Positions 9,729 through 59,812 of a stretch of DNA of 64,000 nt are shown in pieces. The notes below the pieces were generated by a model. The model ran no database searches. It was not told where the DNA came from and saw only the letters and a program-made list of their open reading frames with translations. Position 1 is the first letter of the stretch, and every line of letters starts with the position of its first letter. The DNA comes from Yoonia sp. R2331 (GTDB lineage: Bacteria > Pseudomonadota > Alphaproteobacteria > Rhodobacterales > Rhodobacteraceae): the NCBI RefSeq assembly GCF_041103235.1, contig NZ_JBGCUN010000002.1, forward strand, positions 124,001-188,000, read 5' to 3'. Position numbers and translations under genes: made by a program.

Positions 9729-9760
9729 GTTGCAGCCCCCAAAACCCAACCCTATATACG
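9729..9760 (+). promoter_or_regulatory. Heat-shock (sigma-32 type) promoter of dnaK
   Basis: GTTG (9729-9732), then 18 bases, then CCTATATACG (9751-9760). The -10 part matches the alphaproteobacterial heat-shock consensus CYTATNTNNG at every fixed position; the -35 part differs from CTTG by one base, and the spacing is one base longer than the usual 17. It lies about 110 bases before the dnaK start, where RpoH control is expected. Confidence 0.6.
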
Positions 9761-9869
9761 CGAAGTCGCGAGACGGGCCGAAAGCCCGATCGCAATTCAT
9801 GAAAATAGGCGCGGGTGCCGAAACGGGTTCGCGCCGCTCAAACCGCCTGAAGCAAAAGGGATTTGAAAC

Positions 9870-11786: not shown

Positions 11787-11806
11787 GGCGACAGCCTAGC
11801 GAAATG

Positions 11807-11837
11807 GACCGGCCCGAGGAACCGGGTCGGTCTTTTT
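11807..11837 (+). terminator. Intrinsic terminator between dnaK and dnaJ
   Basis: GACCGGCCCG (11807-11816) pairs with CGGGTCGGTC (11823-11832; one G-T pair) around a six-base loop and is followed by five Ts (11833-11837). It lies 20 bases after the dnaK stop and 26 bases before the dnaJ start, so it is likely a partial terminator setting the DnaK:DnaJ ratio. Confidence 0.7.
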
Positions 11838-11862
11838 CCATTCCCAAAGGGGAAAACTGAAC

Positions 11863-13002: not shown

Positions 13003-13051
13003 GCCGCCCATCGTTAACCAATCTTTCACCTGAATCGCGCGAAATGGGCAT

Positions 13052-35577: not shown

Positions 35578-36353
35578 CCTTTGCGCAGAACACCTACGAT
35601 GGTTTCTGCATGGGCGAACCCCATGCGACGGTAAAGCCGTCCTGCGTCACTTTCGACATCTGCAACAATCAATGGCACCGCATCCGGCGCGCGGCACTGC
35701 GCCCATTTGCAACAATGCAGCAACAACGCGGCACAAATCCCACGTCTTCGTTGGCCCTTGCGCGTCTCAACTTGCTGGTAGCGGGCCACCTGATCGTCGT
35801 GAAAAATTCCCATCTGCGCGACCAGTAAATCGCCCTCAAACGCGCCAAACCACTGCCCCCGATCCCGCGCGATCTGCGCCCTGCGCGCACCCGTGCGCCG
35901 TTGCAAATATCCGATGTGGCTCTCCGCCGGATGACCCTCTTCCACACCAATCTCAAGCGACAAGGCCAATGCCTGCCCCCAGTCAGATTCCGTGTCTAAC
36001 GTGCGTAAATTGATGCCTTCTGGCGTGTCAACATCCGCAATTGCGCCAGTCAAAAACAACGCGTCCACCACATCCCGTTCATAGCCCTCAGCCACAAACG
36101 GCGGGGCGACAGTGCCCACATCCAACCCCGGAATATCCCAGACCATCGCTCGGTGTTTGGCATTGGGAAATGCCCGCACAAAAGCAGCCTCTGCTTCCGT
36201 GACCGGGACGTCAGCGGACTTTAGGATCAACTGATTGCCCATCCAGAAATCCGGTTCTTTCGGTGTCTCTTGTACCCAGAAATCGCCGTGGTCTGTCAGA
36301 TGGGTTTGCCCATCCATCACCAATTGCTCACTGCGTAGCGTTAGCGATCTCAT
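35571..36353 (-). CDS. GNAT-type acetyltransferase
   Basis: A 260-residue protein starting at ATG 36353. The C-terminal half carries a GNAT-like core: [40 protein letters not shown] (acetyl-CoA loop region) and [20 protein letters not shown]. The first 120 residues probably form a degenerate second GNAT fold. The start overlaps the stop of a 33-codon frame (ATGA), which suggests translational coupling. Acceptor unknown. Confidence 0.75.
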
Positions 36354-36451
36354 TCCGACAACTTTGATCCTGGCACCCGCAACATGGGCAAGTCCCGTGC
36401 GGCGCACATCTGCACCAGCTGTTTCGCGGCCTCTCTGACGCCAATCTCCAT
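36350..36451 (-). CDS. Small frame (33 codons) coupled to the GNAT gene
   Basis: An ATG at 36451 lies four bases after GGGGAG, a stronger ribosome-binding site than the GNAT gene itself has. It opens a frame of 33 codons starting MEIGVREAAKQLVQM whose TGA overlaps the GNAT ATG. The first residues recall the VREAK..L opening of Phd/YefM antitoxins, but the frame is far shorter than those (about 80 residues), so it could be a truncated gene. It may equally be a leader frame that feeds ribosomes to the acetyltransferase. Confidence 0.4.
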   Translation of the reverse strand: MEIGVREAAKQLVQMCAARDLPMLRVPGSKLSE

Positions 36452-36767
36452 GTTACTCCCCAAGATCGTCTTTTTCCTAACGATTCTCAAATCACTGTTC
36501 ATCAAGAGCATTCTAGCAGAAGACACCAGTGGCGAAACACCGCAGGCCATTTGGTTAGTGGTCCATCAATCCTTGAGGAAGCAATAGCGGCGACTGAATG
36601 TGATGTCTGCATTGGGAAGTGTGTTCGCAGCAAAAGGCAACTCAGCGGGCTTCGACCGCAGAATCTTGGTCCGTTGGTAATTGCATGTTCCTGCCGGAGT
36701 TGGCGGGTGGCCAGGTTTGCCGCCCCAGCTATCCAGCTCACTGTGAGGGGAGTGTCAGTCCGGCCCC
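36452..36767. other. Gene-poor stretch, possible relic of a mobile element
   Basis: No frame here has both a plausible start signal and a protein-like composition. The stretch lies between the small frame and the AlpA-like gene. I see no inverted terminal repeats, integrase fragment or tRNA-derived duplication. Confidence 0.3.
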
Positions 36768-36992
36768 TCAAGTTGCGCAAGCCGTTTTTTCAAGCCACTC
36801 TAGCCATAGACCTTCTTCCCACCCCTCGCAGTTCGGGCCCTGCTGTATCCGCTTCGGGAGTGGGCCTGTCTTCTCCAGCTTTGCAATGTACTGCCGCGAG
36901 AACAGGATCAGCTCCTTGACCTGGCGTTTTGAAAGTAACTCATCAGGAAATCTCCTAAACAGAAGAGCATCGCGACGCTCGAGTTTCGACAA
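36768..36992 (-). CDS. AlpA-like small DNA-binding regulator
   Basis: A 74-residue protein starting at TTG 36992 behind GAGGAG. The pattern LLSKRQVKELILFSRQYIAK, then a G-P-L-P-K turn and GWEEGLWLEWLEK, fits the AlpA/MerR-type excisionase-like winged helix (compare tG.Srs.iyr.i..G.FP..v..g....W...ev..Wi). Such proteins control integrase or excision genes of prophages and integrative elements. No integrase or other element gene is nearby, so it is probably a leftover. Downstream and upstream sequence is gene-free for about 320 and 110 bases. Confidence 0.6.
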   Translation of the reverse strand: MSKLERRDALLFRRFPDELLSKRQVKELILFSRQYIAKLEKTGPLPKRIQQGPNCEGWEEGLWLEWLEKTACAT

Positions 36993-37104
36993 GTCCGCTC
37001 CTCACATGGGCGCCACTTTCCCCCAAGACATGCATAAAACTCGGCTTTGACCGTAACAGCGCGTTGCGCCATGATCTGCCCAGTTCCTGCGAAAGGCGAA
37101 GGCG

Positions 37105-38328
37105 GTGTTCAGAAAGTTAGGGTCACAGATCGCAGGACTGCTGGGTGACCAGGCGCAGGCGGTGGAACCGGTTGATCTGACGAGCGATGCCTTCCTTGCC
37201 GATCCGGTCCCGATCTACGACGCTTTCCGCAAGACACGTCCATTGGCACAGGTGCAGGGCGGTGGGTATCTGCTAACCCGCGCTGTCGATATCGTAGCCT
37301 CACTATCCGACTCGCACCTTGGCAATGCACCTTCACGGTTCTCTGCGCTGTCAGAAGGGAAGCGCGCCACACATGTCAGTGCCGACGTCGCGGCAAATAT
37401 CCCCCCGTTTCTGGACAAGCCTCGGCATGTGGAAATCCGGCGCCCGGTTTCGGCCGCGTTCTATCAGTCCTTTGCGGCGTGCAAAACGTGGCTGCCACAA
37501 CTGGCCGACCACCAGATCAGCGCGATGGCGCGTGGGGTCAGCTTTGACGCCAATATTGAATTTGCCCGACCTTTCGCCATTGCCGCGATGGCCCGTTTTG
37601 TTGGTCTGCCGCACGATCCCACAGCAATCAGTCAAGCCACGGATGCCTTGTTCAGCTTGTTCGCTCCGATCCAGAGCCGCGAAGCACTGGATAGGACAAA
37701 TACCCGGCTGGCCGAAGCCCGCCATTTCATCGAACAGGTGATGGCCCAACCCACGCTGGATCCACAGTGCTTTCTGGCGCAGTTATCGCCGCATCTTTCC
37801 CCACAGGCGGTCTGCGACAACGCCCTTTTGATCCTTGCGGACGGGGTCGAGAATATCGCGGCGGGTGTCGCGACCTTCTTTGTGGTGATGCAGCAGCAAC
37901 CGGATGTCTGGCAGTCCTTGCAGACCGATCCGGGACAGCTTGCCAATGCGGTTCACGAGGCGTTGCGACTCGAAAGCCCCGCCCAGATCATCCCGCGCAT
38001 AATCCAAGAGGAAACCGTGTTGCACGGAATCACGCTCAAGCCCGGCACGCCATTGTTTCTGGCGTTGGGCAGTGCCAACCGCGATCCAGATGCGCATGAC
38101 GAACCCGCCGCGTTTGACCTTGCCCGCGATGCGCGCGCGGCGCTGATCTTTGGGCGGGGTCGCCATGCCTGCATCGGCACGCAGCTGGCTCTATTGCTGA
38201 TAGAAGCGGCAGTTTCAGCCTTGCTGGCGGCGGGTGTCACGATGCAGTTTACACCTGCAGACTTGCACTATCAGCACAGGTTTGGGCACCGCTGGCCGTT
38301 GGGCGTGATGATCGATTTGCCTGACTAG
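37105..38328 (+). CDS. Cytochrome P450
   Basis: A 407-residue soluble bacterial-type P450, starting at GTG 37105. The heme-ligand loop IFGRGRHACIGTQLA places the axial Cys at 356, ExxR is EALR (285-288), and the C-helix HVEIRRPVSAAF is at about 108. The I-helix reads LILADGVENIAAG: the usual acid-alcohol pair (E/D-T) is Glu249-Asn250 here, so oxygen activation or substrate contacts may differ. It converges on the NRPS-like gene with overlapping stops (4 bp), pointing to a shared pathway, perhaps oxidation of a carrier-bound or released product. No ferredoxin gene is adjacent. Substrate unknown. Confidence 0.9.
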   Translation: MFRKLGSQIAGLLGDQAQAVEPVDLTSDAFLADPVPIYDAFRKTRPLAQVQGGGYLLTRAVDIVASLSDSHLGNAPSRFSALSEGKRATHVSADVAANIPPFLDKPRHVEIRRPVSAAFYQSFAACKTWLPQLADHQISAMARGVSFDANIEFARPFAIAAMARFVGLPHDPTAISQATDALFSLFAPIQSREALDRTNTRLAEARHFIEQVMAQPTLDPQCFLAQLSPHLSPQAVCDNALLILADGVENIAAGVATFFVVMQQQPDVWQSLQTDPGQLANAVHEALRLESPAQIIPRIIQEETVLHGITLKPGTPLFLALGSANRDPDAHDEPAAFDLARDARAALIFGRGRHACIGTQLALLLIEAAVSALLAAGVTMQFTPADLHYQHRFGHRWPLGVMIDLPD

Positions 38329-41081
38329 GGTATGCGGAACACGAGCCGTCCGTTGCCCGAACCGGTGTCATTACCAAACCGGGCCAATCCATCGTCCACA
38401 ATTCGGGCAGTCAATCGGTAGGGCCGGCGCCGCGCGCTCGGCCATGTCAGGTCAAACCCAAAGCGCTGCGTTTCCCCCGGCGCGACGGCCGTTGCAAAAT
38501 CGGCGATCGCATGGCGCAGGATGGCCATGTCCAATCCGTTCACATCGAAATCGATGGATAAGAACAAGCCACTGTCCACGGTTGGCGGCCAAGGTACCTT
38601 GCTGGTGTTTGTGACGGTGACAGTCACCTTTTTTGCCTTGGAACGCGACAAGAACCGTGGCGCATGTAGTGCAATCCGGGCGTCGTGCCGCACTTTGCGT
38701 TCTGGCAGAGAAGTCTGATCTGTAGGTGTCTGACGCGGCAGAGGCTTGCCCTCAAGGTAAGGCGTCACAGCCTTGCGCAACTTCGGCAAGGTCTCTCGAT
38801 CCAGCAAATGTACGTGGGCCCGGTCAAAGGCCTGAAAGACAGCTCCCTTCGGATGGAGCACAGCAAAGCCCAAACTGGGGTCGCGATAGCGGACAGCGCC
38901 CGAATAGTTCGGGCTATTCGACCAGACATAGTAGACCGGGTAGGGCGTCGATACGTCGAAAATGTTGTCGATTGCGAGGAACATTGAGATGGGATGGCCT
39001 AGCCTTGTCAGGTCCTGTCCCACCATTTCCATCACGCGGACACCTTCACAAAAGCCACCCAGAATTACCGGTTCGGCAGGGGTCAGGAGGCTAGCGATGT
39101 CGCGGGCGTATAGCTTTGCCAGCTCCGCGTTCAGCGCGGTATCCTTTCCGCCAAAGCCAAACAGCGACCGCATGATGTGGAATGGGTGATCCTTGAAAAT
39201 GTGGTTCGACAAGGGGCGCGGCATCGCCATGCCGTTGGCGCAAAAGAATGCAGGTGTCCCCTGTGCCAGCGAGTTGCGTAGAATAATCAGACCATGCGGC
39301 CCAACCCGTTGTCCTTGCCAACCCGCGATACGTTTGCGCAGATATTGTAGGTGTGCCGGTTCTGATTGCGTCTTGGGTTGATCAGCTCTCAGGGCAGCGA
39401 CAAGCGCATCAAGTCGCGGTGCTTCAAATAGGATATTTGGGTCAACAGATCTGCCCAGCGCTTCTTCCAGCAGGGTGATGAATTCGGTCGCGGCCAGACT
39501 GTCGCCGCCATCGTCAAAGAAATCGGACTGGGCATGTGGAGTGCGACATTGCAGGTGTGTCGCCCAAATCGTGGCCACCTTGGTCGTCAAAGGGTCGGTT
39601 GGTCTGTGTGCAGTTTCGGACTGGTCCGGCATTGACGCCAAGGACCGCCGGTCGGTTTTGCCGCTGGGCAACCGCGGCAAAGCGTCGAGGAATAGCACTC
39701 TGCGCGGCACTTCAAACGCCGAAAGTTGGCTTTGTAACACTTTCAGCAAGGTCGTTTCTTCAAGGGGTTGGTCAGTGACAACGGCCAAAGCCACCTGCTC
39801 TCCCAGCGTTGGATGTGGCACGCCATAGGCCACAGTATCCAACACCCCCGGCACCGATTTGGCAGCGCGTTCAACCACCAAAGGTGAAATCTTTTCACCG
39901 CCGCGATTGATCTGCTCTTTCAGGCGTCCGGTCAGCGTCAAAACGCCATCTTCGTCCAACACCCCAAGGTCGCCGGTGCGGAACCAGTCACCATAGCGCG
40001 GGGTGATGTCGGTCCCTTCGTAGCCAGTCATGATGGTGGGTCCGCTTACACACACCTCGCCCTCATGTCCGGCAGGCAAGCGGTTTCGAAAACTGTCTAT
40101 GATGGCGACCTCTGGCCCGGCAGCGCGACCGACAGAGCGCAGTTTGTCCGCATGTTCATCAAGCGACATTGAGGTGATCTGCCCCGCGGTTTCAGTCATG
40201 CCATACATCTGAATGATCGGCACGGGACCAAGGCGAGACGTGGCCTGCGCCCGCAATTCAAGCGTCAAATCAGCGGACACCATACGTAGAAATCGCAGCC
40301 TTTGGCCGATTTCCTGCGCTGTTGCGTCGTCCAGATCGGCCACCAGCCGATGCAACGCAGTGGGCACCAGTTGCAGCCAAGTCGCCGCATGTGTCCTGAC
40401 GGCGCTGACCAGTGAGGTGGATTCGAGGTTTGCGGCAATAATGACGGTCCCGCCGGCTGACAATGGCGCGAGCAACAGATCAACCAGCGCGCCAACATGG
40501 AACATCGGCAGCGCATGTACGGCGCGGTCTGCGGGTCCAAGGCGCAGGTGGTTGCAGATGTTGGTGGCGGACAGCGCCAATTGATCGGGCGTCAATGGCA
40601 CCCGTTTTGGTGTGCCTGTGCTGCCAGAGGTAAACAGGGTCAGCCCCGCCTGATTGCGCCCACCTTTTGGCAGTTCGCCCAGCAGACGGGCGTTTTGTAG
40701 ATCCACGGGCACAAGTTTACCGGGATGTTCCTTTTGCAGATGGGCAAGGGTCGTGACGGAGAGCGCCGAAGTATACAGCACCACGTCAATTTGCGCCTCG
40801 GTGATGCTGTCAGACAGGCGCGCTGATTGCGCCTCAAGGTTCAGCGGACAAAGCCGCACCTGATCGAGCAACGACAAGAGGGCAACAGCCGTGTCAGGGC
40901 CGTTCTCGAACAGCGTCGCCACACGCAATGGCCCTGCCACATGAATCGCCCGATGCCATGTCGCGCGACGCTCGCACAATCCGCGATAGGTCAGCACATG
41001 TCCGTCCGCACCAATCAGTGCAGGGCGGTCGCCAGATCCTTCGATTGTTTGCCAGAGCGATGACCAGGGTTGGTGGGACAT
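38325..41081 (-). CDS. Single-module NRPS-like protein: adenylation, carrier, thioesterase and Ig-like domains
   Basis: About 918 residues from ATG 41081. Adenylation domain 1-480: LFTSGSTGTPKRVPLT (149-164), MFHVGAL, QMYGMTETAG, RTGDLG and the A10 Lys in LPSGKTDRRSL. The A4 region reads LPMFHVGALVD, not FDxS, so the Asp that holds an alpha-amino group is missing, and an acyl or aryl acid is likelier than an amino acid. Carrier domain 490-565, with the phosphopantetheine Ser528 in DDGGDSLAA. Thioesterase about 590-780, with GGFCEG placing Cys678 where Ser is usual; a candidate Asp (LAIDNIFD) and His (RAHVHLL) follow. An Ig-like tail about 790-918 (VTNTSKVPWPP). Partner genes are the P450 and a divergent kynureninase. 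A release activity is inferred; the product is unknown. Confidence 0.85.
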   Translation of the reverse strand: MSHQPWSSLWQTIEGSGDRPALIGADGHVLTYRGLCERRATWHRAIHVAGPLRVATLFENGPDTAVALLSLLDQVRLCPLNLEAQSARLSDSITEAQIDVVLYTSALSVTTLAHLQKEHPGKLVPVDLQNARLLGELPKGGRNQAGLTLFTSGSTGTPKRVPLTPDQLALSATNICNHLRLGPADRAVHALPMFHVGALVDLLLAPLSAGGTVIIAANLESTSLVSAVRTHAATWLQLVPTALHRLVADLDDATAQEIGQRLRFLRMVSADLTLELRAQATSRLGPVPIIQMYGMTETAGQITSMSLDEHADKLRSVGRAAGPEVAIIDSFRNRLPAGHEGEVCVSGPTIMTGYEGTDITPRYGDWFRTGDLGVLDEDGVLTLTGRLKEQINRGGEKISPLVVERAAKSVPGVLDTVAYGVPHPTLGEQVALAVVTDQPLEETTLLKVLQSQLSAFEVPRRVLFLDALPRLPSGKTDRRSLASMPDQSETAHRPTDPLTTKVATIWATHLQCRTPHAQSDFFDDGGDSLAATEFITLLEEALGRSVDPNILFEAPRLDALVAALRADQPKTQSEPAHLQYLRKRIAGWQGQRVGPHGLIILRNSLAQGTPAFFCANGMAMPRPLSNHIFKDHPFHIMRSLFGFGGKDTALNAELAKLYARDIASLLTPAEPVILGGFCEGVRVMEMVGQDLTRLGHPISMFLAIDNIFDVSTPYPVYYVWSNSPNYSGAVRYRDPSLGFAVLHPKGAVFQAFDRAHVHLLDRETLPKLRKAVTPYLEGKPLPRQTPTDQTSLPERKVRHDARIALHAPRFLSRSKAKKVTVTVTNTSKVPWPPTVDSGLFLSIDFDVNGLDMAILRHAIADFATAVAPGETQRFGFDLTWPSARRRPYRLTARIVDDGLARFGNDTGSGNGRLVFRIP

Positions 41082-41156
41082 AACGCCGAGAATGCACACT
41101 GCCCGACAGAATTCCAACCCGGATACGGCGCGCCCGAATTGGCCTTGCAGCGGCCC

Positions 41157-41201
41157 GATCCTGATCCCAAGATGACCTGATTTTCGCAAGTTCACAGGAT
41201 C
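41157..41201 (+). promoter_or_regulatory. Inverted repeat overlapping the kynU ribosome-binding site
   Basis: GATCCTG (41157-41163) and CAGGATC (41195-41201) are perfect inverted repeats 31 bases apart. The right arm contains the AGGA ribosome-binding site of the kynureninase gene, whose ATG is at 41206. It may be an operator in the divergent kynU/NRPS-like promoter region or an mRNA hairpin that limits translation. Confidence 0.35.
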
Positions 41202-41205
41202 ACAG

Positions 41206-42399
41206 ATGCCCCCTTCCCTGCCGATGAAAGACAAGTTCGTTCTGCCTGATGGCATGGTCTATCTGGATGGTAACTCTTTGGGGCCTCTGCCGCGCGCGGT
41301 GCCAGAGCATCTGGCGCGCGTCGTCGCGGATGAATGGGGGCAGCATCTGATCAAAGGTTGGAACCAAGACGACTGGATGAGGCAGCCGGTGCGGTTGGGT
41401 GATAGCATTGGGCGGCTGATCGGTGCGCCTGCCGGGTCCGTTGTTCTGGGCGACACGCTGTCGATCAAGGTCTATCAGGCTCTGTCGGCCGCGCTCAGCA
41501 TGCGGCCGGATCGCAAGGTGGTCTTGTCCGACACCGGGAATTTTCCGACAGACCTTTACATGGCAGAGGGGCTGATCGCCCATCTTAATGCGGGCCACAC
41601 ATTGCGCACGGTGGCCCCCGAAGATGTGACCGCAGCCATCACCGAAGAAGTCGCAGTGGTCATGATCACGCAGGTTGATTATCGCTCTGGCCGTATGCAC
41701 GACATGCAGGCAATCACCAAACGCGCGCATGACTTTGGTGCAGTGATGGTCTGGGATCTGGCCCATAGTGCGGGGGCTGTCCCTGTTGATGTGGCAGCGC
41801 TGGGATGTGAGTTTGCCGTGGGCTGTACCTACAAGTACCTCAACGGTGGTCCAGGTGCGCCTGCCTTCATCTACGTTAGATCCGACCTGTCCGGCACCAT
41901 TGCGCCTGCGCTGTCAGGTTGGCTGGGCCACGATGCGCCCTTTGCATTTGAACCGTCCTACAGGCCCGGAAAGGACATCGAACGCATGCGCGTGGGCACG
42001 CCACCGGTGTTGCAGATGTCAGCACTAGAGGCCGCGATGGCGGTTTGGGACGGCGTCGATATGGGCGATTTGCGTGCCGCAAGTATCACGCTGAGCGAAC
42101 TTTTCATCACAGAGGTCGAGACGCGCTGCCCGCAATTGACCCTTGCCAGCCCGCGCAACCCGGCCGAGCGCGGCTCGCAGGTCTCGTTCGCGTTTGAGCA
42201 TGGCTATGCGGCGATGCAAGCCTTGATCGCGCGGGATGTGATTGGGGACTTTCGCGCGCCCAACATCATGAGGTTCGGCTTTACACCGCTTTATCTGGAT
42301 GACAGCGACGTGCACCGCGCCGTGGATGTGCTGGCCGAGGTGCTCGACCAGCGACTGTGGGACGACCCCGTCTACCTGCGCAAGGCCCGTGTGACCTAG
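41206..42399 (+). CDS. kynU: Kynureninase
   Basis: Kynureninase is a PLP enzyme that splits kynurenine (or 3-hydroxykynurenine) into alanine and (3-hydroxy)anthranilate. The 397 residues show YLDGNSLGPLPRAV (substrate/PLP region, about 19), MVWDLAHSAGAVPVDV with the PLP-binding Asp184, and GCTYKYLNGGPGAPAF with the Schiff-base Lys210. The rest also follows the family. No tryptophan dioxygenase or formamidase gene is nearby, although these usually accompany kynU in a catabolic setting. The gene diverges from the NRPS-like gene, suggesting that anthranilate supplies its adenylation domain. It ends by overlapping the convergent membrane-protein gene. Confidence 0.93.
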   Translation: MPPSLPMKDKFVLPDGMVYLDGNSLGPLPRAVPEHLARVVADEWGQHLIKGWNQDDWMRQPVRLGDSIGRLIGAPAGSVVLGDTLSIKVYQALSAALSMRPDRKVVLSDTGNFPTDLYMAEGLIAHLNAGHTLRTVAPEDVTAAITEEVAVVMITQVDYRSGRMHDMQAITKRAHDFGAVMVWDLAHSAGAVPVDVAALGCEFAVGCTYKYLNGGPGAPAFIYVRSDLSGTIAPALSGWLGHDAPFAFEPSYRPGKDIERMRVGTPPVLQMSALEAAMAVWDGVDMGDLRAASITLSELFITEVETRCPQLTLASPRNPAERGSQVSFAFEHGYAAMQALIARDVIGDFRAPNIMRFGFTPLYLDDSDVHRAVDVLAEVLDQRLWDDPVYLRKARVT

Positions 42400-42758
42400 A
42401 CCGTTTCCGGCGCGCGCCAGAGCGTCGCAAAAAGCGTCAGGAACGCCAGGCAGTTGACCACAGCGATGGAGGCAAAAAGCCATCCAGGCACTGGACCCGC
42501 CGCCCAGATAGCGCCCAATGCCGAAATGCCGCCAACGGCCATCACAAAGAACATGACATACCCCAACCACCGCATTCCGCGTGACAGGCCAGAGGCGCAG
42601 GCCAAGTAGATCAAGCCAATGACGAAAAGCATCAGCGACGGGACAGCAAAGCCGCTAATCACCGGCGCAATCAGATGCAAGAGCGCGCTGATCAACACAA
42701 AAGGAATTGCCCAGCGAAACGGGCCTTGGATCAGTGTCATGGTCGTTGCCTCATTCAT
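42396..42758 (-). CDS. Small membrane protein, about four transmembrane segments
   Basis: A 120-residue protein with four hydrophobic stretches (RWAIPFVLISALLHLIAPVI; VPSLMLFVIGLIYLACASGL; LGYVMFFVMAVGGISALGAI; LFASIAVVNCLAFLTLFATL). The start is set at ATG 42758, which overlaps the end of the cytochrome gene by eight bases; another ATG precedes it at 42761. It is the last gene of the molybdenum-hydroxylase operon, so it may anchor or serve that complex. I do not recognise a family. Confidence 0.65.
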   Translation of the reverse strand: MNEATTMTLIQGPFRWAIPFVLISALLHLIAPVISGFAVPSLMLFVIGLIYLACASGLSRGMRWLGYVMFFVMAVGGISALGAIWAAGPVPGWLFASIAVVNCLAFLTLFATLWRAPETV

Positions 42759-43365
42759 CATTCGCGCAGGGCATGCCGCCGACTCCCCAGGCCAGCACGT
42801 CATTGACGTGGGACTGCAGATCGTAAGGGGCCGGTTCGCGGCCGCCACCGGGGTTCCATGCCCAATGCAGGATCAGGTCGTGGTCAAGGTGGCTGGCGAT
42901 TTCCAGATAGTCGCGTCCACCGTTGCGGTTAGGGTCGCGCAGTTGGTTGCAAACATCTGTTGAGGATGTGCCAAACCATTCCGCCTCGACCGGGGCAAGT
43001 TGCCAATTCATGGCGACCTGCGGCGCGGCATGAGGTATGTCGTTCAACCCCTCGCGGTAGGCGTGGCACGTGCTGCACTGGATCGTCTCAACCCCGATGC
43101 GGCTGTCGCCCGCATTGATGTTCATCCCGTGCGGGCGGGTCTTGCCGTAGCTTGGGCCTGACCACATCGGGCGGTTCTCTGGGCCGACATGGCAATTCGA
43201 ACACCGCGGATGCGACGCAACCTCGTAAATGCGGTCCCATGCGGCAAGCGCCTGTTCCCGGCTGATCGTGCCATCTGCAGGCGGCGTGATTTCGACGTTT
43301 TCGCCCGCGGCCAAGACGGACGAAGCGGTCAATGCGATGATGGCTGATGCCGACCAAAGTTTCAT
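42751..43365 (-). CDS. Periplasmic diheme cytochrome c
   Basis: A 204-residue exported protein. The signal peptide is MKLWSASAIIALTASSVLAA. Two CxxCH heme motifs are seen: CSNCH at 55-59 and CSTCH at 97-101. The DGTISREQALAAWDRIYEVA stretch before the first motif and the C-terminal HDLILHWAWNPGGGREPAPY are distinctive. It follows iorB by 12 bases, so it is likely the electron acceptor of the periplasmic hydroxylase, passing electrons on to the respiratory chain. Confidence 0.88.
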   Translation of the reverse strand: MKLWSASAIIALTASSVLAAGENVEITPPADGTISREQALAAWDRIYEVASHPRCSNCHVGPENRPMWSGPSYGKTRPHGMNINAGDSRIGVETIQCSTCHAYREGLNDIPHAAPQVAMNWQLAPVEAEWFGTSSTDVCNQLRDPNRNGGRDYLEIASHLDHDLILHWAWNPGGGREPAPYDLQSHVNDVLAWGVGGMPCANDE

Positions 43366-43377
43366 AACGGTGGCCCC

Positions 43378-45621
43378 TTAGACAAAGTCGACAAATTTGT
43401 TGAACGGCATTTCGCGCAGGCGTTGGCCGGTTGCTGCAAAGATTGCATTGCCCAGCGCAGGTGCCGCGGGCGGCACCGGTGGTTCGCCAAAGCCTTTGAT
43501 CTTGGGTGTGTTTTCGAGCGCAGTGAAATGCATGCGCGGCGTCTGATACAGGCGCATCGCTTCGTGCGCGTGATAGTTTGACTGCTGCGCCATGCCGTCG
43601 GCATATGTGATCTCGCAGTTCATCGCATGGCCTAGGCCAAAGATCGTGCCGCCGAACGCCAGGTTTTCAAGATTGACCGGGTCAATCACTTGCCCCACGT
43701 CCGCGGCGATCCAGACCTCATCAAGGCGGATGCCGCCATCGGTCTGTGTCACCTCGACCACGGTCGCGACCGGTACCCCAAAGGAAAAGGCATAGGCAAT
43801 CCCGCGCCCGCGCCCATTGCCCAGATCATGGCCGTTCCAGCTGCACATGTCGGCAACCGTTTCGAGCACTTTTACAGAGACGTCATGCCCCATCAAACGG
43901 ATACGTTCTGCGAGCGGGTCCGCACCGGCGGCATGGATCGTTTCATCCAGCAGCGTATCATAGATGAACGTATTGGGCGCCGCGCCGACAGAACGCCAAG
44001 ACGATACTGGTGCAAGGCTGGTTTCCTTGTACGACCGGACCCGTAGGTTGGGTAGGTTAAGGTTTGGGACGTCCCAGGCCCCTTCGTGAAGCTGGGTGTC
44101 CGGACCAGGCAAGCTAAGCCCCATACGCGACATCTGAGAGGTCAGCACGGATTGCCCCGCGATCTGCACATCCAACGACACGACCTTGCCATCAGCGTGT
44201 TTGCCAACGCCGCGCCCCATGGTGATGTGACGGGGGAAGTCATGTGCAAAATCCTCTTCCCTGGAATAGGTCATTTTGACAGGCGTCCCGCGCATCTTCA
44301 TTGCAATCTCAGCTGCCTGCCGCACGAAGTCCATTTCGAGCCGGTGACCAAAACTGCCACCGATGAACATGTTGTGCAGGTGCACGTTGCTGGCGTCGAG
44401 CCCGGTGAGGTTGGCGACGTCCGATTCCACCATCATCTGAAGCTGGTGGCCGGTCCAGATATCAACCCGGTCATCGGTTACAAGAATCGTGGCATTCAGT
44501 GGCTCCAACGGAGCATGTGCCACGTAAGGTGAGCGGTATTCGCCGGTGACTTCATCGCCCGAGGCAGCATCAACATCACCAACTGTGCGCGCCTCAGCAT
44601 TCAGTTTTTCGGGCACAAACGCAGCCGACAAGGCCGCCCAGTGGGCATCCTGTTCTGCTGGATAGGATGCAGGGCCCCAGGTGCAGTCCACGGCATTGGC
44701 AGCTTGAATGGCGCGCCATGTGTTGTCGGCAACCACCGCGATCCCGCCGGTGATTTCAAAGATATCAACAACACCGCGCATGTCGCGTGCTGCAGTATCA
44801 TCATAGGATTCCAGTGCGCCGCCTTGCCGGGGATTGACCTTGATCGTCGCGTGCAACAGGTCGTCAGCCTGATGATCGATTCCATAGGTCTGCGTGCCGG
44901 TGGACTTTGCCTTGATGTCCACCCGCTCCATCGGCTTGCCCAGAATGCGCCATTGTGACGGGTCCCGCAGTTTCACATCTTTGACCGGCGCGATTTGTCC
45001 GGCGGCTGCAGCCAATTCGGTATAGAGCAGCGTTTTGCCATCGGGCAGTTCAACTGCGCCGTTTGCGGTTTTCAGAGTGCTAACATCGACACTGGCTTGC
45101 TGCGCGGCGGCGGCTTTCAACGTTTCACGCGCCAATGCTCCGGCCTGACGCAACTTGTCGTAGCTGTCCGGCATGGCCGAGGATCCACCCGTTCCCATGA
45201 TCGGAAGAAATGCACGCAGAACACCGCCCGCGATCCCGCGCATCGTCTCTGCAGTGTCGCCGAAGTCGTATTGCGGGAACGGCACAGCCGCGTCAGCGAA
45301 GGCTGTATTGAAGTAGGCCTGATCTGGCGTACCAAAGCTGATTTCAACCTGATCAAGGGTGACGTCCAATTCTTCAGCGATCAAGGCGGCCTGCGCGGAC
45401 ATGACGCCTTGGCCCTTGTCAGCATGAGGTGCGATCAGCGTGATCTTTTCGGCATCAATGATGACCCACGGATTGAAGCTGACGGCGTCCTGCGACAATT
45501 CCGCCAAATTCGGGTTCTCAAACGGGCGATTTGCGCGATAGACGCCAAAGGCGACCCCGCCCAACACGGCAGCGGACCCGACCAGAAAGCTACGACGACT
45601 AATTGTGCGAAGGCGACCCAT
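43378..45621 (-). CDS. iorB: Molybdopterin-binding large subunit, isoquinoline 1-oxidoreductase/aldehyde dehydrogenase type
   Basis: A xanthine-oxidase-superfamily subunit of 747 residues from ATG 45621; the ATG overlaps the iorA stop (TAATG). It starts with a twin-arginine signal (TISRRSFLVGSAAVLGGVAF), so the complex is exported folded. Typical parts are PHADKGQGVMSAQAALIAEE, GEYRSPYVAHAPLEPLNATI, MFIGGSFGHRLEMDFVRQAA and the near-C-terminal IKGFGEPPVPPAAPALGNAI with the active-site Glu motif GEP. The single large subunit with a [2Fe-2S] partner and a cytochrome, without an FAD subunit, is the IorAB/membrane-bound aldehyde oxidase arrangement. Substrate may be a heteroaromatic compound or an aldehyde. 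Confidence 0.9.
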   Translation of the reverse strand: MGRLRTISRRSFLVGSAAVLGGVAFGVYRANRPFENPNLAELSQDAVSFNPWVIIDAEKITLIAPHADKGQGVMSAQAALIAEELDVTLDQVEISFGTPDQAYFNTAFADAAVPFPQYDFGDTAETMRGIAGGVLRAFLPIMGTGGSSAMPDSYDKLRQAGALARETLKAAAAQQASVDVSTLKTANGAVELPDGKTLLYTELAAAAGQIAPVKDVKLRDPSQWRILGKPMERVDIKAKSTGTQTYGIDHQADDLLHATIKVNPRQGGALESYDDTAARDMRGVVDIFEITGGIAVVADNTWRAIQAANAVDCTWGPASYPAEQDAHWAALSAAFVPEKLNAEARTVGDVDAASGDEVTGEYRSPYVAHAPLEPLNATILVTDDRVDIWTGHQLQMMVESDVANLTGLDASNVHLHNMFIGGSFGHRLEMDFVRQAAEIAMKMRGTPVKMTYSREEDFAHDFPRHITMGRGVGKHADGKVVSLDVQIAGQSVLTSQMSRMGLSLPGPDTQLHEGAWDVPNLNLPNLRVRSYKETSLAPVSSWRSVGAAPNTFIYDTLLDETIHAAGADPLAERIRLMGHDVSVKVLETVADMCSWNGHDLGNGRGRGIAYAFSFGVPVATVVEVTQTDGGIRLDEVWIAADVGQVIDPVNLENLAFGGTIFGLGHAMNCEITYADGMAQQSNYHAHEAMRLYQTPRMHFTALENTPKIKGFGEPPVPPAAPALGNAIFAATGQRLREMPFNKFVDFV

Positions 45622-46085
45622 TATCCTGCCCCCTGCAATTTGACAGCGGCCGTTTTGACCGCATCGCGGATACGCGGATAAGTCCCGCAGCGGCACAAAT
45701 TACCGCTCATCACGATGTCTATGTCCTGATCAGAGGGGTTCGGATTCAGGTCAAGAAGTGACGCCGCCTGCATGATCTGACCAGATTGGCAGTAGCCGCA
45801 TTGCGCGACCTGATGTTCAACCCAAGCCTCCTGCACCGCATGCAGTGCGTCGGGTGTTCCCAACCCTTCGATGGTGAGTATATCGGCACCATCAGCGGTT
45901 GCGGCGGCAACCTGACAGCTGCGCACGGCCAAGCCATCCATATGCACTGTGCAGGCCCCGCATTGTGCGATGCCGCAGCCGTATTTTGTGCCGGTAAGGC
46001 CCAATTCGTCGCGCAAGACCCAAAGCAGAGGCATGTCATCTTCGACATCAACCTCGCGCGGTTGGCCGTTCACTGTCAGTTTCAT
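45621..46085 (-). CDS. iorA: [2Fe-2S] small subunit of the molybdenum hydroxylase
   Basis: A 154-residue electron-transfer subunit. The plant-type cluster is bound by Cys37, 42, 45 and 57 ([20 protein letters not shown] ... SCQVA). The second cluster is bound by [12 protein letters not shown] and [12 protein letters not shown]. It lacks a signal peptide and would be exported with IorB by the Tat path. It is the first gene of iorA-iorB-cytochrome-membrane protein, divergent from the TetR gene with operators between. Confidence 0.93.
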
Positions 46086-46165: not shown

Positions 46166-46738
46166 ATGAATGAGAAGACGATCAACATAATCAAAGCGGC
46201 GCACGCACAGTTTTCGCGCTATGGCTTTGGCAAGACGACGATGAATGACATTGCGTCTGCGGCAAATGTCGCCCGTCAGACTGTTTACAACACTTTTTCA
46301 AGCAAAGAAGAAATCTTGCGGGCCGTTGTCCGGCTTTACGGTGAAGAGTCGCTGAACCAGATCAAAGCGGCTTGGGCCAGTGATGCGACACTGGACGCCA
46401 AACTAAGCACCTTTCAAAAATTGGGACCACAGACATGGTATGAAGCGATACATGCGGCCCCCGATTGGGCAGAGCTGCTGGAAGGCATGCACACCGCCGC
46501 GGCCGAGGAAATGGCCGAGCTTGAAGTCCTTTGGAAAGCAGAATTGACCAGCGCTTTTGCAGATGCGCTGGGACCTGCGCCCAAGATCGCAACACCATTG
46601 GATGACATTGTCGAATTCTTCTATTCCAGCAGCTTCAACGCCAAATATGGTGCCGCAGATGCGGCCCATCTTGATCAGCGGTTGCGAACCATTAAATCCG
46701 CAACCCTTGCGCTAATCAAAGCACCTGCAGGCACTTAG
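46166..46738 (+). CDS. TetR-family transcriptional regulator
   Basis: A 190-residue repressor-type protein. The helix-turn-helix is at about residues 10-55 ([40 protein letters not shown]). The C-terminal ligand domain has the sequence [20 protein letters not shown] and is variable, as usual. It diverges from the iorAB operon across two palindromic operators, so it most likely controls that operon and itself, with the hydroxylase substrate as a possible inducer. Its stop overlaps the convergent smoK stop. Confidence 0.9.
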
Positions 46739-47769
46739 GCCCGCAACCCGCTTTCCCGGTCGAAGTAGTGAGCCAGCTCAGGCTTGATCGAGAAGTGGAT
46801 CGTGCTGCCCTTTGCACCTGCTGGCGGCTTTTCGGTTTTGGCGATGAATTCCGTGCCCGCGGGTGAGATGAGATGAACAAGTGCGTATTCACCCAGGTTT
46901 TCAATCAGTTCCATGCGACCTTCGATAACTGCGTTGCTTTCACTACCAACGGTCAGATGTTCAGGGCGGAACCCGACTTGCTCAGTGGCGGCAACCTCTC
47001 GACCCAGTACGGTGCTGGCGCTTGCGGACAGCTCGTCCGCGCCAAAGAAATTCATCTTGGGGCTGCCAATAAACTGCGCCACAAATGCGTTTGCCGGAGT
47101 GTCATAGAGCGTGATCGGAGAACCGACCTGTTCGATCCGGCCATCGCGCAACACCACGATCTTGTCGGCCAGGGTCATCGCCTCGACCTGGTCGTGGGTC
47201 ACGTAGATCATTGTTGTCTTCAGGCGCTCGTGCAGGCGTGCAATTTCAAGGCGTGTCGCAACCCGCAGGGCCGCATCAAGGTTAGACAATGGTTCATCGA
47301 ACAAGAACACCTCTGGGTCACGCACAATGGCGCGGCCAATGGCGACCCGCTGGCGTTGCCCGCCTGACAAGTTGCGCGGGGCGCGGTCCAGATAGTCGGT
47401 GATCTGCAAAATCTCGGCCGCAGCTTTGACACGGCGATCAATCTCTGCGGGGTCGGTCTTGGCCTGCTTCAGGCCAAAAGCCATGTTCTTGTAGACGGTC
47501 ATATGCGGATAAAGAGCATAGGTTTGGAACACCATCGCGACGCCACGCTTGGAGGCCGCGACTTCGTTCACGACGGTATCACCAATCGCCACAGAGCCGT
47601 CAGAAATTTCTTCGAGCCCCGCAATCATGCGCAGCAAGGTGGACTTACCGCAGCCCGATGGGCCTACGAACACAACAAATTCGCCGTCTTCGATATCAAG
47701 ATCGACACCGTGCATGACTTGAGTTTCGCCATAGCTTTTGCGGACATCGCGTAGCGTCAAACCGGCCAT
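46735..47769 (-). CDS. smoK: Sugar/polyol ABC transporter ATPase (SmoK/UgpC/MalK type)
   Basis: A 344-residue ABC ATPase from ATG 47769, 13 bases inside the mtlK 3' end. Walker [19 protein letters not shown] (about 35), signature [16 protein letters not shown] (about 134), Walker [16 protein letters not shown], the His loop in [12 protein letters not shown], and the C-terminal MalK-like regulatory domain (about 240-344) are all present. It is the last gene of the polyol operon and serves the SmoF/SmoG permease. Confidence 0.92.
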
Positions 47770-49178
47770 TTCGTCTCCAATTCTTTGATTTCGTGCCGCA
47801 GTGTGGCGGCAAATTCGGGATAGGTTTCGGGGATGTCTCCCCACAGCTTTCGACTAGTGACAAAGCCATCGGTGCCAAGCATTGCCTTAAGCTCTGCCCA
47901 GCTAGGCTCCACATATTTGAAAGGAATCTTTCCAGCGGCGACGTGACGGGCAAAGACGTACCAACTGGCAATGCTGCGCGCGGTATAGACCGGCACAATT
48001 CCTTGTTCGAGACAGCCTTGCAGGGTCGGACGGATGAAGATCGGGAATTTGGCCATGCCATCCGCACAGATGCGAGCAACCGTGTCACCAATGGCCTGAT
48101 TGCCAAAACGGCGCGCTATGGCGTCGCGGTAGTCAGTCTTAGAAAACGGCAGCGCGATACGGATCGCGGGCAGAACCTCATCCGTTTGGAACCGGTGGAA
48201 ATGGTCATTCAAAGCAGGCACGCGCATCGCCGCATCGAAAGTGTCAACACCTTCCAGAGCCGCCAGATAGCACAAAGCAGTGTGGCCGCCATTCAGCACG
48301 CGGATCTTCGTTTCCTCGTAGGGATCGACGTCGGCAGTGACCGTGACGCCGGCCTGTGCAAGGTCCGGCATGTCCGCCGCGGCGTTATCCTGCAACACCC
48401 ACTGCATGAAATCCTCTGCCATGATTGGCGAGGTCACGTCTTTGCCCACAAGTGCCGCAAGCTCTGCGCCCAGGCTGTCAGGACTGCGTGGCGTGATACG
48501 GTCAACCATCGAGCATGGGAACGCCACATTGGATGCGACCCAGCTATGCAGTTCGCTTTCGCCGCTTGCCTCAAGATAGGCCAGCAAGTTCCGCTGCAGC
48601 ATCTTGCCATTTTGGCGAATGTTGTCGCAACAAGCGATGGTCAGCGGCGCGTCGGTCCGCTGCATACGGCTGGCAAGTGCGCCCCGCAGGTAGCCATAAA
48701 CGCTTTGCGCGTCACTGCCCTTGGCCTCTGCCGCAATGACGGGATCGGCAGTGTTCAGGTCACCCCTAGGATCGGTGTAGTAACCGCTTTCAGTGACTGT
48801 GATAGTGACCAGATGAACCGATGGCAGGGACAGCAATGCCTCGGAACCGGCCGTATCAACGCTCCAATCCGCGAAGGCGACATGCGAGCGAACCCGGCGC
48901 AGTGCTACATCGCCGTCAGGGGATGTCGCCTTGAGAAGGTAACCGTCGTGCCGCGCGATATCCTCGACGACCGCCTCAAACTGCGCGGCTTCGGACCCGC
49001 GTAGATTTACTGCGGCGATGCCCCAACGCAGATCGCCAGAGGCTTGCATGTAGTCGTCCAGATAGACTGCTTGATGGGCGCGATGAAAGGCGCCGAACCC
49101 CAGGTGGACCACGCCAACCGCGCAATCGGTGCGGACAAAACTTGTCGCATGAACATGAGAGGTCGTAGCAGTGTTCAT
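47757..49178 (-). CDS. mtlK: Mannitol 2-dehydrogenase (polyol-specific long-chain dehydrogenase)
   Basis: Oxidises D-mannitol (and related polyols) to the ketose with NAD. The 473-residue length and the motifs [20 protein letters not shown] (nucleotide-binding start, about 22) and [20 protein letters not shown] (about 285) are typical. In the latter, the Lys, Asn and His at the family spacing (Kx4NxxH) form the catalytic set. It sits within the smo operon, four bases into the AraC gene's end. Fructuronate/tagaturonate reductases share the fold, but the transporter context favours mannitol or arabinitol. Confidence 0.9.
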
Positions 49179-55373: not shown

Positions 55374-57413
55374 TCAGCCGCGTCGTCTGCGTCTGCGCCC
55401 ACCACTTCCATCGTCTCCACCTTGGTTATGGTTGACAGCGGGTAGATCGACGATGGTGTTCAGGATCGGGAAGGGTTCAACCGCGTTGGGGATATTGGAC
55501 GCATTGACAAAGTGCTCTTGAAAGCGCGGCTCGATCGCGGTTTCGATCTTATGGATTTTGTGGACGACTTCTTCGATGTCCGCCCGCGCCTTGGTATTCA
55601 AAAGCGCGATGCGCGCGCCTGTGCCAGCGGCGTTCCCGGCAGAGGTCACCTTGTCCAGCGGCGCATCGGGGATCATGCCAAGCACCATGGCGTGCTTGGG
55701 CGAGATATGCGCACCAAAAGCCCCGGCCAGCACCACGCGATCAACCTTGTCCACACCGAACTTGTCCATCAGCAGGCGCGCACCGGAATAAAGCGCGGCT
55801 TTGGCCATCTGGATTTGCCGGATGTCCACGTTTGTCACGGTGATCTTGGGTCCGCCCTCAGACGAACCGTCATACACAAGGTAGCTGTTGGTGCGACCTT
55901 CGGGAAAACAATTGGGGGACCCGGTTTGTTCGGCTGACCCGATCAGGCCGGGGCCGTCCACAATGCCGGCCATCCGCATTTCCGCGACAATTTCGATGAT
56001 GCCTGATCCACAGATGCCTGTCACACCGGTGGTCGCAGTCTCTGCCCCGAATTTGGGGTCGTCGGACCAAAGATCACAGCCGATGACCTTGAAGCGCGGT
56101 AACTTGGTCGCCGGATCAATTTCAACCCGTTCAATTGCTCCGGGGGCCGCGCGCTGGCCGCTGCTGATCTGCGCGCCTTCAAACGCAGGCCCGGTGGGGG
56201 ACGAACAGGCCAGCACCTTGTCCTTGTTGCCCAACAGGATTTCGGCGTTCGTGCCCACGTCCACCACCAGAACAAGGTCGTCGGACTTGTCGGGCGCTTC
56301 GGAAAGCGCGACCGCAGCGGCGTCCGCACCCACATGCCCCGCGATGCAAGGTAACATATAGACCCGTGCGGCGGGGTGCAGGTTCAAATCGAGTTCCAAC
56401 GCGCGCAGCGATAGAGATTCCGAAGTTGCCAGGGCAAAGGGTGCCTGGCCCAACTCGAACGGGTCGATGCCTAGGAACAAGTGATGCATCACCGGGTTGC
56501 ACACGAAAACAGCGTCCACGATCAGATTGCGGTCAATGCCCGCCTCGGCCGCGATGTTCACGAAGAGGCTGTTCATCCCCTCGCGCACGGCGCGGGTCAT
56601 TTCTTCGGCGCCCGAAGGGTTCATCATGCCATAGCTGACACGGCTCATCAGATCCTCACCAAATCGAATCTGCGGGTTCATCACGCCCGATGATGCAACT
56701 ACGTCGCCGGTATGCAGGTCACACAAGTGGGCCGCGATCGTGGTGGACCCAAGGTCAACCGCCAAGCCATAGATCGATCCGTCATAGAAACCGGGCCAGA
56801 CTTGCATGATCCGGGGGCTGAAGGTCGCGTCGCCCAGATGCACAGCACAGGTTACCTTCCATTGCCCCTTGCGCAGGGCCGGTTGCAGACTGGTCAGCAC
56901 ACCTAGGTCGGCCTCGAGCGCCGGGAGATCCCAGTCGCGGCGCAGCGCTGTGATCAAGCGCTCCAGATCGCCAGAGGGGTCGTGCATGTCGGGTTCGGCA
57001 ACCTCGACGTAGTACAACCGGGTTGAAGGGTTCAGGACGATGTCGCGCGCCTCGGCACGCTTGCGAACGACTTGTTTGTGCACTTGGCTTTCGGCGGGCA
57101 CATCGATGACAACGTCCTTTTGCACCGTCGCCTGACATCCCAGACGCCGGCCCTTCTTCAGACCGCGAATGTCGTCGTAGCGTTGTTCGGTACTGTTCCA
57201 TTCCGAAAGGGAATCCACTTCCACGGTCAGCCCATGTTTCGGGAATTCGCCAACACCGGGTGTGATCTGACACTTTGAACAAATCCCGCGTCCGCCGCAG
57301 ACACTATCAAGGTCGACACCCAATTGCCGCGCAGCGGTCAGGATCGGCGTGCCAACGGGAAAGTGCCCGCGCTTGCCCGACGGGGTGAAGATGACAAGAG
57401 GATCGTTACGCAT
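55374..57413 (-). CDS. [2Fe-2S]/ASKHA-domain activator of corrinoid proteins (RACo/RamA-like)
   Basis: A 679-residue protein. An N-terminal [2Fe-2S] ferredoxin domain has Cys39, 45, 48 and 93 (DSVCGGRGICSKCQ and RLGCQATV). A linker follows, then an ASKHA ATPase domain from about 205 (YGLAVDLGSTTIAAHLCDLH; LVLVVDVGTNAEILLGNKDK; ICGSGIIEIVAEMRMAGIVD; VVLAGAFGAHISPKHAMVLG). Relatives reduce the cobalt of corrinoid proteins of methyltransferase systems using ATP. Such genes usually sit with the corrinoid protein and methyltransferase, but none is nearby. The last 15 residues are GGDDGSGG plus six Arg and Gly, an odd tail that may be disordered. Target unknown. Confidence 0.85.
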   Translation of the reverse strand: MRNDPLVIFTPSGKRGHFPVGTPILTAARQLGVDLDSVCGGRGICSKCQITPGVGEFPKHGLTVEVDSLSEWNSTEQRYDDIRGLKKGRRLGCQATVQKDVVIDVPAESQVHKQVVRKRAEARDIVLNPSTRLYYVEVAEPDMHDPSGDLERLITALRRDWDLPALEADLGVLTSLQPALRKGQWKVTCAVHLGDATFSPRIMQVWPGFYDGSIYGLAVDLGSTTIAAHLCDLHTGDVVASSGVMNPQIRFGEDLMSRVSYGMMNPSGAEEMTRAVREGMNSLFVNIAAEAGIDRNLIVDAVFVCNPVMHHLFLGIDPFELGQAPFALATSESLSLRALELDLNLHPAARVYMLPCIAGHVGADAAAVALSEAPDKSDDLVLVVDVGTNAEILLGNKDKVLACSSPTGPAFEGAQISSGQRAAPGAIERVEIDPATKLPRFKVIGCDLWSDDPKFGAETATTGVTGICGSGIIEIVAEMRMAGIVDGPGLIGSAEQTGSPNCFPEGRTNSYLVYDGSSEGGPKITVTNVDIRQIQMAKAALYSGARLLMDKFGVDKVDRVVLAGAFGAHISPKHAMVLGMIPDAPLDKVTSAGNAAGTGARIALLNTKARADIEEVVHKIHKIETAIEPRFQEHFVNASNIPNAVEPFPILNTIVDLPAVNHNQGGDDGSGGRRRRRRG

Positions 57414-57480
57414 GATCAGCCTTTTTGACGCATTGTCCGAAACTTAGCGGAATGTCAGCGATGAAAAAGGCCAATTCACG

Positions 57481-57495
57481 GCATAATCATTATGC
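57481..57495. promoter_or_regulatory. Perfect palindrome upstream of the ASKHA gene
   Basis: GCATAATCATTATGC (57481-57495) is a 7-bp inverted repeat around a central base, 68 bases upstream of the ASKHA gene's start and 19 bases before the stop of the next gene. Its position fits a repressor operator. Confidence 0.4.
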
Positions 57496-57513
57496 GCAGC
57501 GTCATGCGACCGG

Positions 57514-58203
57514 TCACCGCAAAAGGTCTGTGCCCCATATCCAGACGCCCAGTGGCACCGGCGCAACCGCCAGCACGATGGTCAACAGCATCCAGGCGGG
57601 GTGAAACAGGCGGCTGATCCCGGCCAGCATCAGAATGCCGCCACCGCCGCCAATCACCACCGATCCCGGTAGGTTGATCAAAGCGGCGATGGTCAAATAG
57701 CGCCAGCCAATCAGCACCTGCGCCAGCGGTTTGGGAAGTGCGTCAGAAAGCCCGTTCAGACGGTCCCGTGGTTCTTGCGTTCGAATCCGGTCAATCATCG
57801 CACAGGCGCGCAACATGTGGAGGTCGCGAAAGACATGATGCAGCCATTTGAGCGAGACATTTCGACCGACAACAAAGGCAAGCACCAGTCCGATCACTGT
57901 CGCCAGATAAACGAATGGTGCAATCCTCGCCCCTTCCATCAGCAGCAGGGCCGCGCCAATCTCAACCCCCGGCATAAAGGGAACCGCCAGCAGGATTGCG
58001 TAACCGATCAAGACCAATGTCAGCACGCCCAGCATCATCTGGCTGCCACCGATGCCTGTCATCGACATCGCCTGCACAGAAACCCATTCGTAGAACTGCA
58101 ACCCTAACCACGCCAGCAACACTGCAACGGCCAGCCGCAGTATCAATCGCGGCAGGCTCTTACGCCACGGCGGTGGCGTTTGCGTTGATGTCGGAGGTCC
58201 CAT
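57514..58203 (-). CDS. Small polytopic membrane protein (DedA/TVP38-like features)
   Basis: About 229 residues from ATG 58203, with five to six hydrophobic segments. PFMPGVEIGAALLLMEGARI recalls the re-entrant P-x-P-x-E region of DedA/VTT proteins, but the rest is not clear enough for a firm call. The open frame runs on to 58596, but that part is antisense to guaB and is ignored; ATGs at 58242 and 58281 are also possible starts. It diverges from guaB. Confidence 0.55.
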   Translation of the reverse strand: MGPPTSTQTPPPWRKSLPRLILRLAVAVLLAWLGLQFYEWVSVQAMSMTGIGGSQMMLGVLTLVLIGYAILLAVPFMPGVEIGAALLLMEGARIAPFVYLATVIGLVLAFVVGRNVSLKWLHHVFRDLHMLRACAMIDRIRTQEPRDRLNGLSDALPKPLAQVLIGWRYLTIAALINLPGSVVIGGGGGILMLAGISRLFHPAWMLLTIVLAVAPVPLGVWIWGTDLLR

Positions 58204-58288
58204 TGCGCGAGGATGCGCCCAAGACGTGGTGGGGACAAGCATGTTCGCGACAATTTGGCCTTTCACAGGTGGGGTAACCATGCAATAG

Positions 58289-59773
<1,485 letters not shown>

Positions 59774-59812
59774 GGCCACTCGCATCATTTCAATATCAAG
59801 TGCGGTAACCGC

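Follow-up and report, generated by a model that had tools for sequence, protein, structure and literature searches.

A cytochrome P450 and the adenylation-carrier-thioesterase-Ig protein (‘A-PCP-TE-Ig’) encoded tail to tail with it in the window (the whole 64,000-nucleotide stretch of Yoonia sp. R2331 DNA that was analysed) probably form one module, which would load an acid other than an amino acid, oxidise it on the carrier domain and release it through a thioesterase with a cysteine nucleophile. What the analysis shows directly is its domain content, the conservation of its catalytic residues, the recurrence of the gene pair and the independence of the kynureninase gene (kynU) that lies beside it.

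The P450 gene occupies positions 37105..38328 of the forward strand, opens with GTG and encodes 407 amino acids (ORF list; Pfam p450, 56.4 bits). The gene for the A-PCP-TE-Ig protein lies on the reverse strand at 38325..41081, followed on the forward strand by kynU (41206..42399), a neighbour that was judged to stand outside the unit. A first-pass annotation of this DNA had described a P450, an NRPS-like enzyme and a kynureninase, and all three reading frames are present in the ORF list at these positions; the overlapping stops that it noted for the first two both fall within a CTAG palindrome (38325..38328), where the P450 and A-PCP-TE genes overlap tail to tail. The longest reading frame for the NRPS-like protein extends to 41255. 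Aligned relatives of the protein start at about window residue 59, which corresponds to the ATG at 41081 and points to that codon as the probable true start, the first 58 codons of the longest frame being probably untranslated; with this start, the NRPS-like gene and kynU do not overlap.

The pair and its usual third gene

When genome contigs were searched with the NRPS-like protein, 37 loci were returned, seven of which (L035, L036, L037, L038, L039, L040 and L041) cover most of the query, the other 30 matching it only inside residues 59-570. Locus L035 comes from the same species as the window (97% identity for the NRPS-like protein, 98% for the P450). The neighbouring gene that converges on that of the NRPS-like protein encodes a relative of the P450 in L035 (98%), L036-L039 (43-47%) and L010/L083 of genome G370 (37%). 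The tail-to-tail pair is accordingly found in the window, L035, L036, L037, L038, L039 and L083. The overlap of the facing ends measures 4 bases in both the window and L035, 14 in each of L037 and L038, and 22 in L036; gaps of 10 and 18 bases separate them in L039 and L083, respectively. Another arrangement occurs in genome G266 (L080), where a single strand carries the P450 gene, then that of the A-PCP protein, which it overlaps at ATGA, and then the amidohydrolase gene; at the end of this A-PCP protein, a region bearing a GTSGG motif replaces the Cys-type thioesterase, so that the releasing part of the system varies. In Maritimibacter HTCC2654 (G229, L040) no P450 gene lies next to the A-PCP-TE gene within 18.7 kb; the P450 (47%) and the amidohydrolase adjoin each other about 2.85 Mb away on the same contig, and all of these genes are kept. 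An allantoate-amidohydrolase-like gene precedes the A-PCP-TE gene in L040.

Among 394 genomes of the family, the P450 profile (at 1e-80) matches six and the amidohydrolase profile (at 1e-40) matches five, and every one of these belongs to the seven genomes with the best-scoring A-PCP matches (G000, G333, G229, G153, G327, G370 and G266); within the seven, G000 and G333 are without the amidohydrolase and G327 is without the P450. The corresponding hypergeometric values of about 1e-12 (P450) and 3e-10 (amidohydrolase), or, counted by genus, 8e-11 for each, serve as no more than a guide: the profiles were built from members of the set, the genomes are related and the seven were picked post hoc. 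In the A-PCP search, which scored no more than the few top candidates of each genome, the seventh genome (2.8e-74) stands near the eighth (4.4e-72), whose match ends at residue 541; 84 other genomes gave weaker matches, most of them stopping near the end of the adenylation domain, with G304 reaching the carrier. The identities of the P450 and A-PCP proteins correlate (r = 0.96 over 21 pairs of seven taxa), some of which is explained by shared ancestry alone. Of the three genes that the first-pass annotation had grouped together, the P450 and NRPS-like genes do co-occur outside this strain, the pair recurring in several Rhodobacteraceae; their pairing exceeds chance, and that of kynU does not.

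The gene that most often completes the set encodes a cytosine-deaminase-like amidohydrolase (P0004; relatives 51-88% identical to it) and lies beside the P450 gene in L036, L037, L038, L039, L082 (HTCC2654) and L083 (G370). All seven of its PDB matches are named cytosine deaminase; the Pfam search returned no family match for it, and the best NCBIfam model, that of a hypothetical protein, scores below its cut-off. It was not found in L041, nor at 1e-10 in either genome of the window species, and the stretch upstream of the window P450 (36300-37150) holds no recognisable remnant (best profile E 0.76, tblastn E 0.24). G327 (L081) encodes an A-PCP protein that Pfam matches to Esterase, with the amidohydrolase some 4 kb away; no relative of the P450 was found in the 20 kb covered there or, at 1e-80, in the genome. 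On a plasmid of Gemmobacter aquarius the neighbour of an amidohydrolase (48%) is an AMP-binding protein in which a GGNCKG motif occurs, and the annotated P450 about 7 kb off gives no match to the window P450 at 1e-5. A class-level scan of 385 genomes matched the amidohydrolase once at 1e-40, in a copy with an internal stop. As to the surroundings (read by eye), the amidohydrolase and the A-PCP-esterase-like protein of G327 flank sialic-acid-type synthesis-like genes (L081:6648-14645), and the P450 and amidohydrolase genes of the Maritimibacter loci adjoin phenylacetate-degradation-like genes (L036:13276-18094 and L082:10693-15604).

Constraint, decay and carrier priming

A comparison of the two conspecific genomes gives the A-PCP-TE gene a dN/dS of 0.44 (64 differences), as against 0.17 for the P450, 0.17 for kynU, 0.22 for ubiG and 0.11 for iorB, which shows that the A-PCP-TE gene is under weaker constraint in this species than the four other genes. 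Copies that look decayed are found in L041 and in G370. In the former (Planktotalea arctica; 7842-14301) the A-PCP-TE gene lies in two frames and the P450 gene is interrupted by transposase-like genes (read by eye); in the latter, close to the end of a contig, the adenylation domain is split between two frames, and the P450 has Phe for the Arg of ExxR (read by eye from the sequence, in a column that is not invariant in the alignment); the ExxR that a motif search gave for this P450 is another one, further upstream. The flank of L041 has a RACo-type gene, guaB and an rsmB-like gene in common with the window (55374-60970).

These decayed copies, the weaker constraint on A-PCP-TE and the absence of the amidohydrolase from both genomes, with no recognisable remnant at 36300-37150, are what one would expect if the pair were a relic in early decay, its pathway no longer working in this species without the amidohydrolase. 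Against this, both reading frames are open in both genomes, the window copy keeps its catalytic residues and the dN/dS of the P450 is low (0.17), and we consider such a relic unlikely.

A single PPTase-family gene was found in the window genome, an AcpS by its length and neighbours; G333, G229, G370 and G266 give one match each, and G153 and G327 two each. The carrier domain may be primed by AcpS or by an Sfp-type gene that was missed, or it may be unprimed.

Enzyme domains and the chemistry they suggest

The P450 carries a haem motif, FGRGRHACIG (Cys356), ExxR from residue 285, and an I-helix with ADGVEN; the pattern ADGxxN, with Asn for the usual I-helix Thr, is found in all eight P450s compared. 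Both phmmer and a profile search place BioI, in a crystal with acyl-ACP, first among its solved relatives, and a comparison of its model with the PDB by fold (mean pLDDT 79.0, falling below 50 in the stretch 351-356 that includes the haem Cys) places CalO2 at rank 1 and BioI-ACP chains at ranks 2-12. CalO2 is a P450 of calicheamicin assembly whose substrate is probably an acid held on a carrier. With BioI (CYP107H1) the fold alignments show only 22-24% identity, and a substrate bound to the carrier is not proved by this match; the nearest solved P450 is one seen with acyl-ACP, whereas the partner of the window P450 is a fused A-PCP-TE protein. No phage records matched the P450, and six plasmid records did so at 24-28% identity.

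The description of the second protein as a single-module NRPS-like enzyme is upheld by Pfam, which recognises AMP-binding, AMP-binding_C and PP-binding and finds no condensation domain. Amino-acid-activating adenylation domains carry an Asp in motif A4 as their hallmark; that this Asp is absent here had been noted before, and the adenylation domain (residues 69-533; 39657..41051, reverse strand) indeed reads FHVGAL, with His in its place, the FH being kept in the relatives that cover this region. Its top three PDB matches are oxalate-CoA ligases, the nearest among solved proteins, with EntE and salicylate-AMP ligase below them. Compared with the oxalate-CoA ligases (AAE3, Pcs60), the window domain keeps His and Ser at positions 214 and 289 of 5ie0, has Gly for His319 (counted by hand) and is fused to its carrier; residues 214, 289 and 319 we assume to form the oxalate-binding pocket, and by the Gly at 319 the domain falls outside that group. 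From its motifs it looks made for a non-amino acid, and the Gly suggests one that differs from oxalate and is perhaps larger. The carrier domain follows at residues 559-622 (39390..39581, reverse strand), with the phosphopantetheine Ser586 in GGDSL.

The thioesterase named in the first-pass annotation is recovered only in part: Pfam finds none in the window protein itself, and finds one in six of the eight aligned relatives (the window protein counted among the eight), but the final 343 residues, modelled with AF2 (mean pLDDT 87.7, pTM 0.86), have a thioesterase-like fold. The PDB matches of this model include the NRPS thioesterases NocB (6ojd) and AB3403 (4zxh, which also matches by profile at 2.4e-10) and, for the tail, the CARDB domains 2kl6 and 3idu. 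The thioesterase occupies residues of about 634-845 (38721..39356, reverse strand), and a C-terminal Ig/CARDB-like beta domain residues of about 858-976 (38328..38684, reverse strand; boundary set by eye from the strands of the model); both the Cys nucleophile and the Ig-like domain had been absent from the earlier description. All eight aligned sequences keep the Cys (in GxCxG), Asp and His of the thioesterase and the Ser of the carrier without change, and Cys736, Asp763 and His814 are proposed as the candidate catalytic triad. Asp763 (Asp130 of segment A3) follows strand 123-129, the next after the nucleophile strand, and thus stands at position I; the thioesterase segment A3 holds no second invariant Asp.

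A TE-Ig profile matched 36 of 385 genomes of the class at 1e-4, with near-full coverage only in the window genome and in G575. The latter, from another alphaproteobacterial family, has a 1244-residue frame (L102:3-3737) that matches residues 76-966 of the A-PCP-TE query, with a GGNCQG motif and a match to the Ig-like tail, and the TE-Ig release unit is therefore not confined to the P450 system. TE-Ig relatives on plasmids were set aside (four records, with weak matches).

The relatives of the adenylation domain, thioesterase and P450, taken with the precedent of Qui18, Qui15 and Qui14, suggest a sequence of loading, oxidation and release. The adenylation domain would adenylate a carboxylic acid that lacks an alpha-amine, loading it onto its own carrier domain; the P450 would oxidise the carrier-bound acyl group; and the Cys-type thioesterase would then accept the acyl chain, to be freed by hydrolysis or nucleophilic attack. 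The amidohydrolase, absent here, would act earlier or later in most of the relatives. We infer that oxidation takes place on the carrier, that the steps follow in this order and that a specialised metabolite results. Several observations count against this reading: the weaker constraint on the A-PCP-TE gene, the missing amidohydrolase, the single PPTase-family gene, the Asn in the I-helix, the two relatives that look decayed, the low identity to BioI, and the want of a P450 beside the A-PCP-TE gene in L040 and of any P450 of this kind in G327.

In echinomycin biosynthesis, the A-PCP protein Qui18 loads an amino acid with the help of an MbtH protein, the P450 Qui15 oxidises only the loaded substrate, and release by the thioesterase Qui14 is proposed and was not studied there (PMC3578932). 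The window pair resembles this system in joining adenylation and carrier domains in one protein without a condensation domain, in having a thioesterase available and in its accompanying P450. NovH/NovI and NikP1/NikQ are systems of the same kind. The differences from Qui18 lie in motif A4, where His stands here in place of the Asp of an amino-acid domain (FHVGAL), in the thioesterase, which here is Cys-type, fused and then followed by an Ig-like domain, and in the amidohydrolase that relatives add. Judged from these features, the pair may work like the Qui18/Qui15 modules and is not filed among them.

Release might take the form of beta-lactone closure, with the P450 adding a beta-hydroxyl and the Cys-type thioesterase closing the four-membered ring, as in obafluorin. 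The invariant Cys would suit this, as would a P450 that could supply the hydroxyl, and a Cys nucleophile has been described as less common and as shared by ObiF and SulM (PMC11298585). However, in the same source the triad Asp of ObiF and SulM is at position II, after beta7, whereas the invariant Asp of the window enzyme is at position I, as in AB3403 of Acinetobacter baumannii (4zxh), a Cys thioesterase of uncharacterised function that is among its PDB matches (PMC11298585); the placing of the Asp lowers beta-lactone release to an improbable outcome. AB3403 itself is, by its PDB title, a four-domain NRPS, whereas the window protein gives no condensation match and carries an Ig-like tail.

We give similarly little credence to a scheme in which the adenylation domain activates an aromatic alpha-keto acid, the thioesterase condenses two such units and the P450 works on the product once it is free. 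The characterised non-reducing NRPS-like enzymes, which use aromatic alpha-keto acids (PMC9047271), have the same A-T-TE order without a condensation domain, but the adenylation domain here is nearest to oxalate-CoA ligases and the P450 to types that act on carrier-held acyl groups.

If loading, on-carrier oxidation and Cys-thioesterase release are indeed combined in this module, P450 oxidation on a carrier extends from a loaded amino acid (the case in PMC3578932) to a simple acid. The two-gene unit is compact and short enough for in vitro rebuilding. A broader proposal, which we advance only tentatively, is that a sparse and new Rhodobacteraceae pathway employs the amidohydrolase, the P450 and the A-PCP-TE-Ig protein to oxidise a tethered carboxylic acid other than an amino acid and release it through the Cys-type thioesterase, that the released form may be a small lactone or ester with a role as a signal or antibiotic, and that in this species the pathway is cut down to its two-enzyme core. 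The recurring gene set points the search for the product to organisms such as Maritimibacter alkaliphilus HTCC2654 and Thalassovita litoralis. No description of the gene set was found in a literature search of titles and abstract openings, subscription papers being mostly outside its scope.

The kynureninase gene and its neighbours

That kynU encodes a kynureninase is confirmed by Pfam (KYNU_C and Aminotran_5) and by NCBIfam (kynureninase, 283.5 bits against a cut-off of 246.4). Its place in a trio with the pair is not: among the loci compared it adjoins them only in this species, giving no co-occurrence outside it. No relative of kynU lies beside the pair in L036-L041, L080 or L083 (a 24% match in L058, an unrelated locus, was left aside), and kynureninases (49-67%) occur away from the pair in five of the five other-genus genomes tested. 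In the window genome the gene discussed here is the single close kynureninase, the other match being at 27%. The kynureninase of HTCC2654 starts at the end of a tryptophan dioxygenase gene; this linkage is seen in one genome only, the other four having no dioxygenase relative within roughly 3-4 kb around the kynureninase.

The first-pass annotation had argued against plain tryptophan breakdown on the ground that no tryptophan dioxygenase adjoins kynU. None is indeed present in the ORF lists of the window, but one lies elsewhere in the genome, on another contig (C1:1955353). Because the genome has its own dioxygenase, and with the equivalog cut-off passed, kynU is best read as a plain tryptophan catabolism gene and a bystander to the pair. 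The pathway first proposed, in which anthranilate or 3-hydroxyanthranilate derived through kynU would be loaded by the adenylation domain, oxidised by the P450 and released by the thioesterase, could draw on the adjacency of kynU in both genomes of this species and on a non-amino-acid adenylation domain with EntE and salicylate-AMP ligase among its matches, but it loses its only specific support once kynU, which is not conserved with the A-PCP and P450 genes, is no longer a member, and it appears very improbable, though anthranilate may be chemically admissible as a substrate. The gene set built around kynU was thus misleading, and its place is taken by the recurring set with the amidohydrolase.

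In G266 (L128:2860-5446), a kynU gene follows a sugar-type ABC ATPase gene that is 57% identical to the one at window positions 46735-47844, a hint that kynU had these surroundings earlier and independently of the pair. A class-V aminotransferase gene upstream of A-PCP-TE in L037 was considered as a kynureninase and rejected, its nearest family being cysteine-desulfurase-like (176.6 bits, below the cut-off of that family). IorAB-type molybdenum hydroxylase genes were likewise rejected as members of the unit, only L035 and L082 having them among the 12 loci compared. In the window, such a hydroxylase (MoCoBD and 2Fe-2S subunits) lies next to kynU (42751-46085) with a gene that by eye looks cytochrome-c-like, and a related IorAB-type pair lies near the P450 gene in L082 (HTCC2654).
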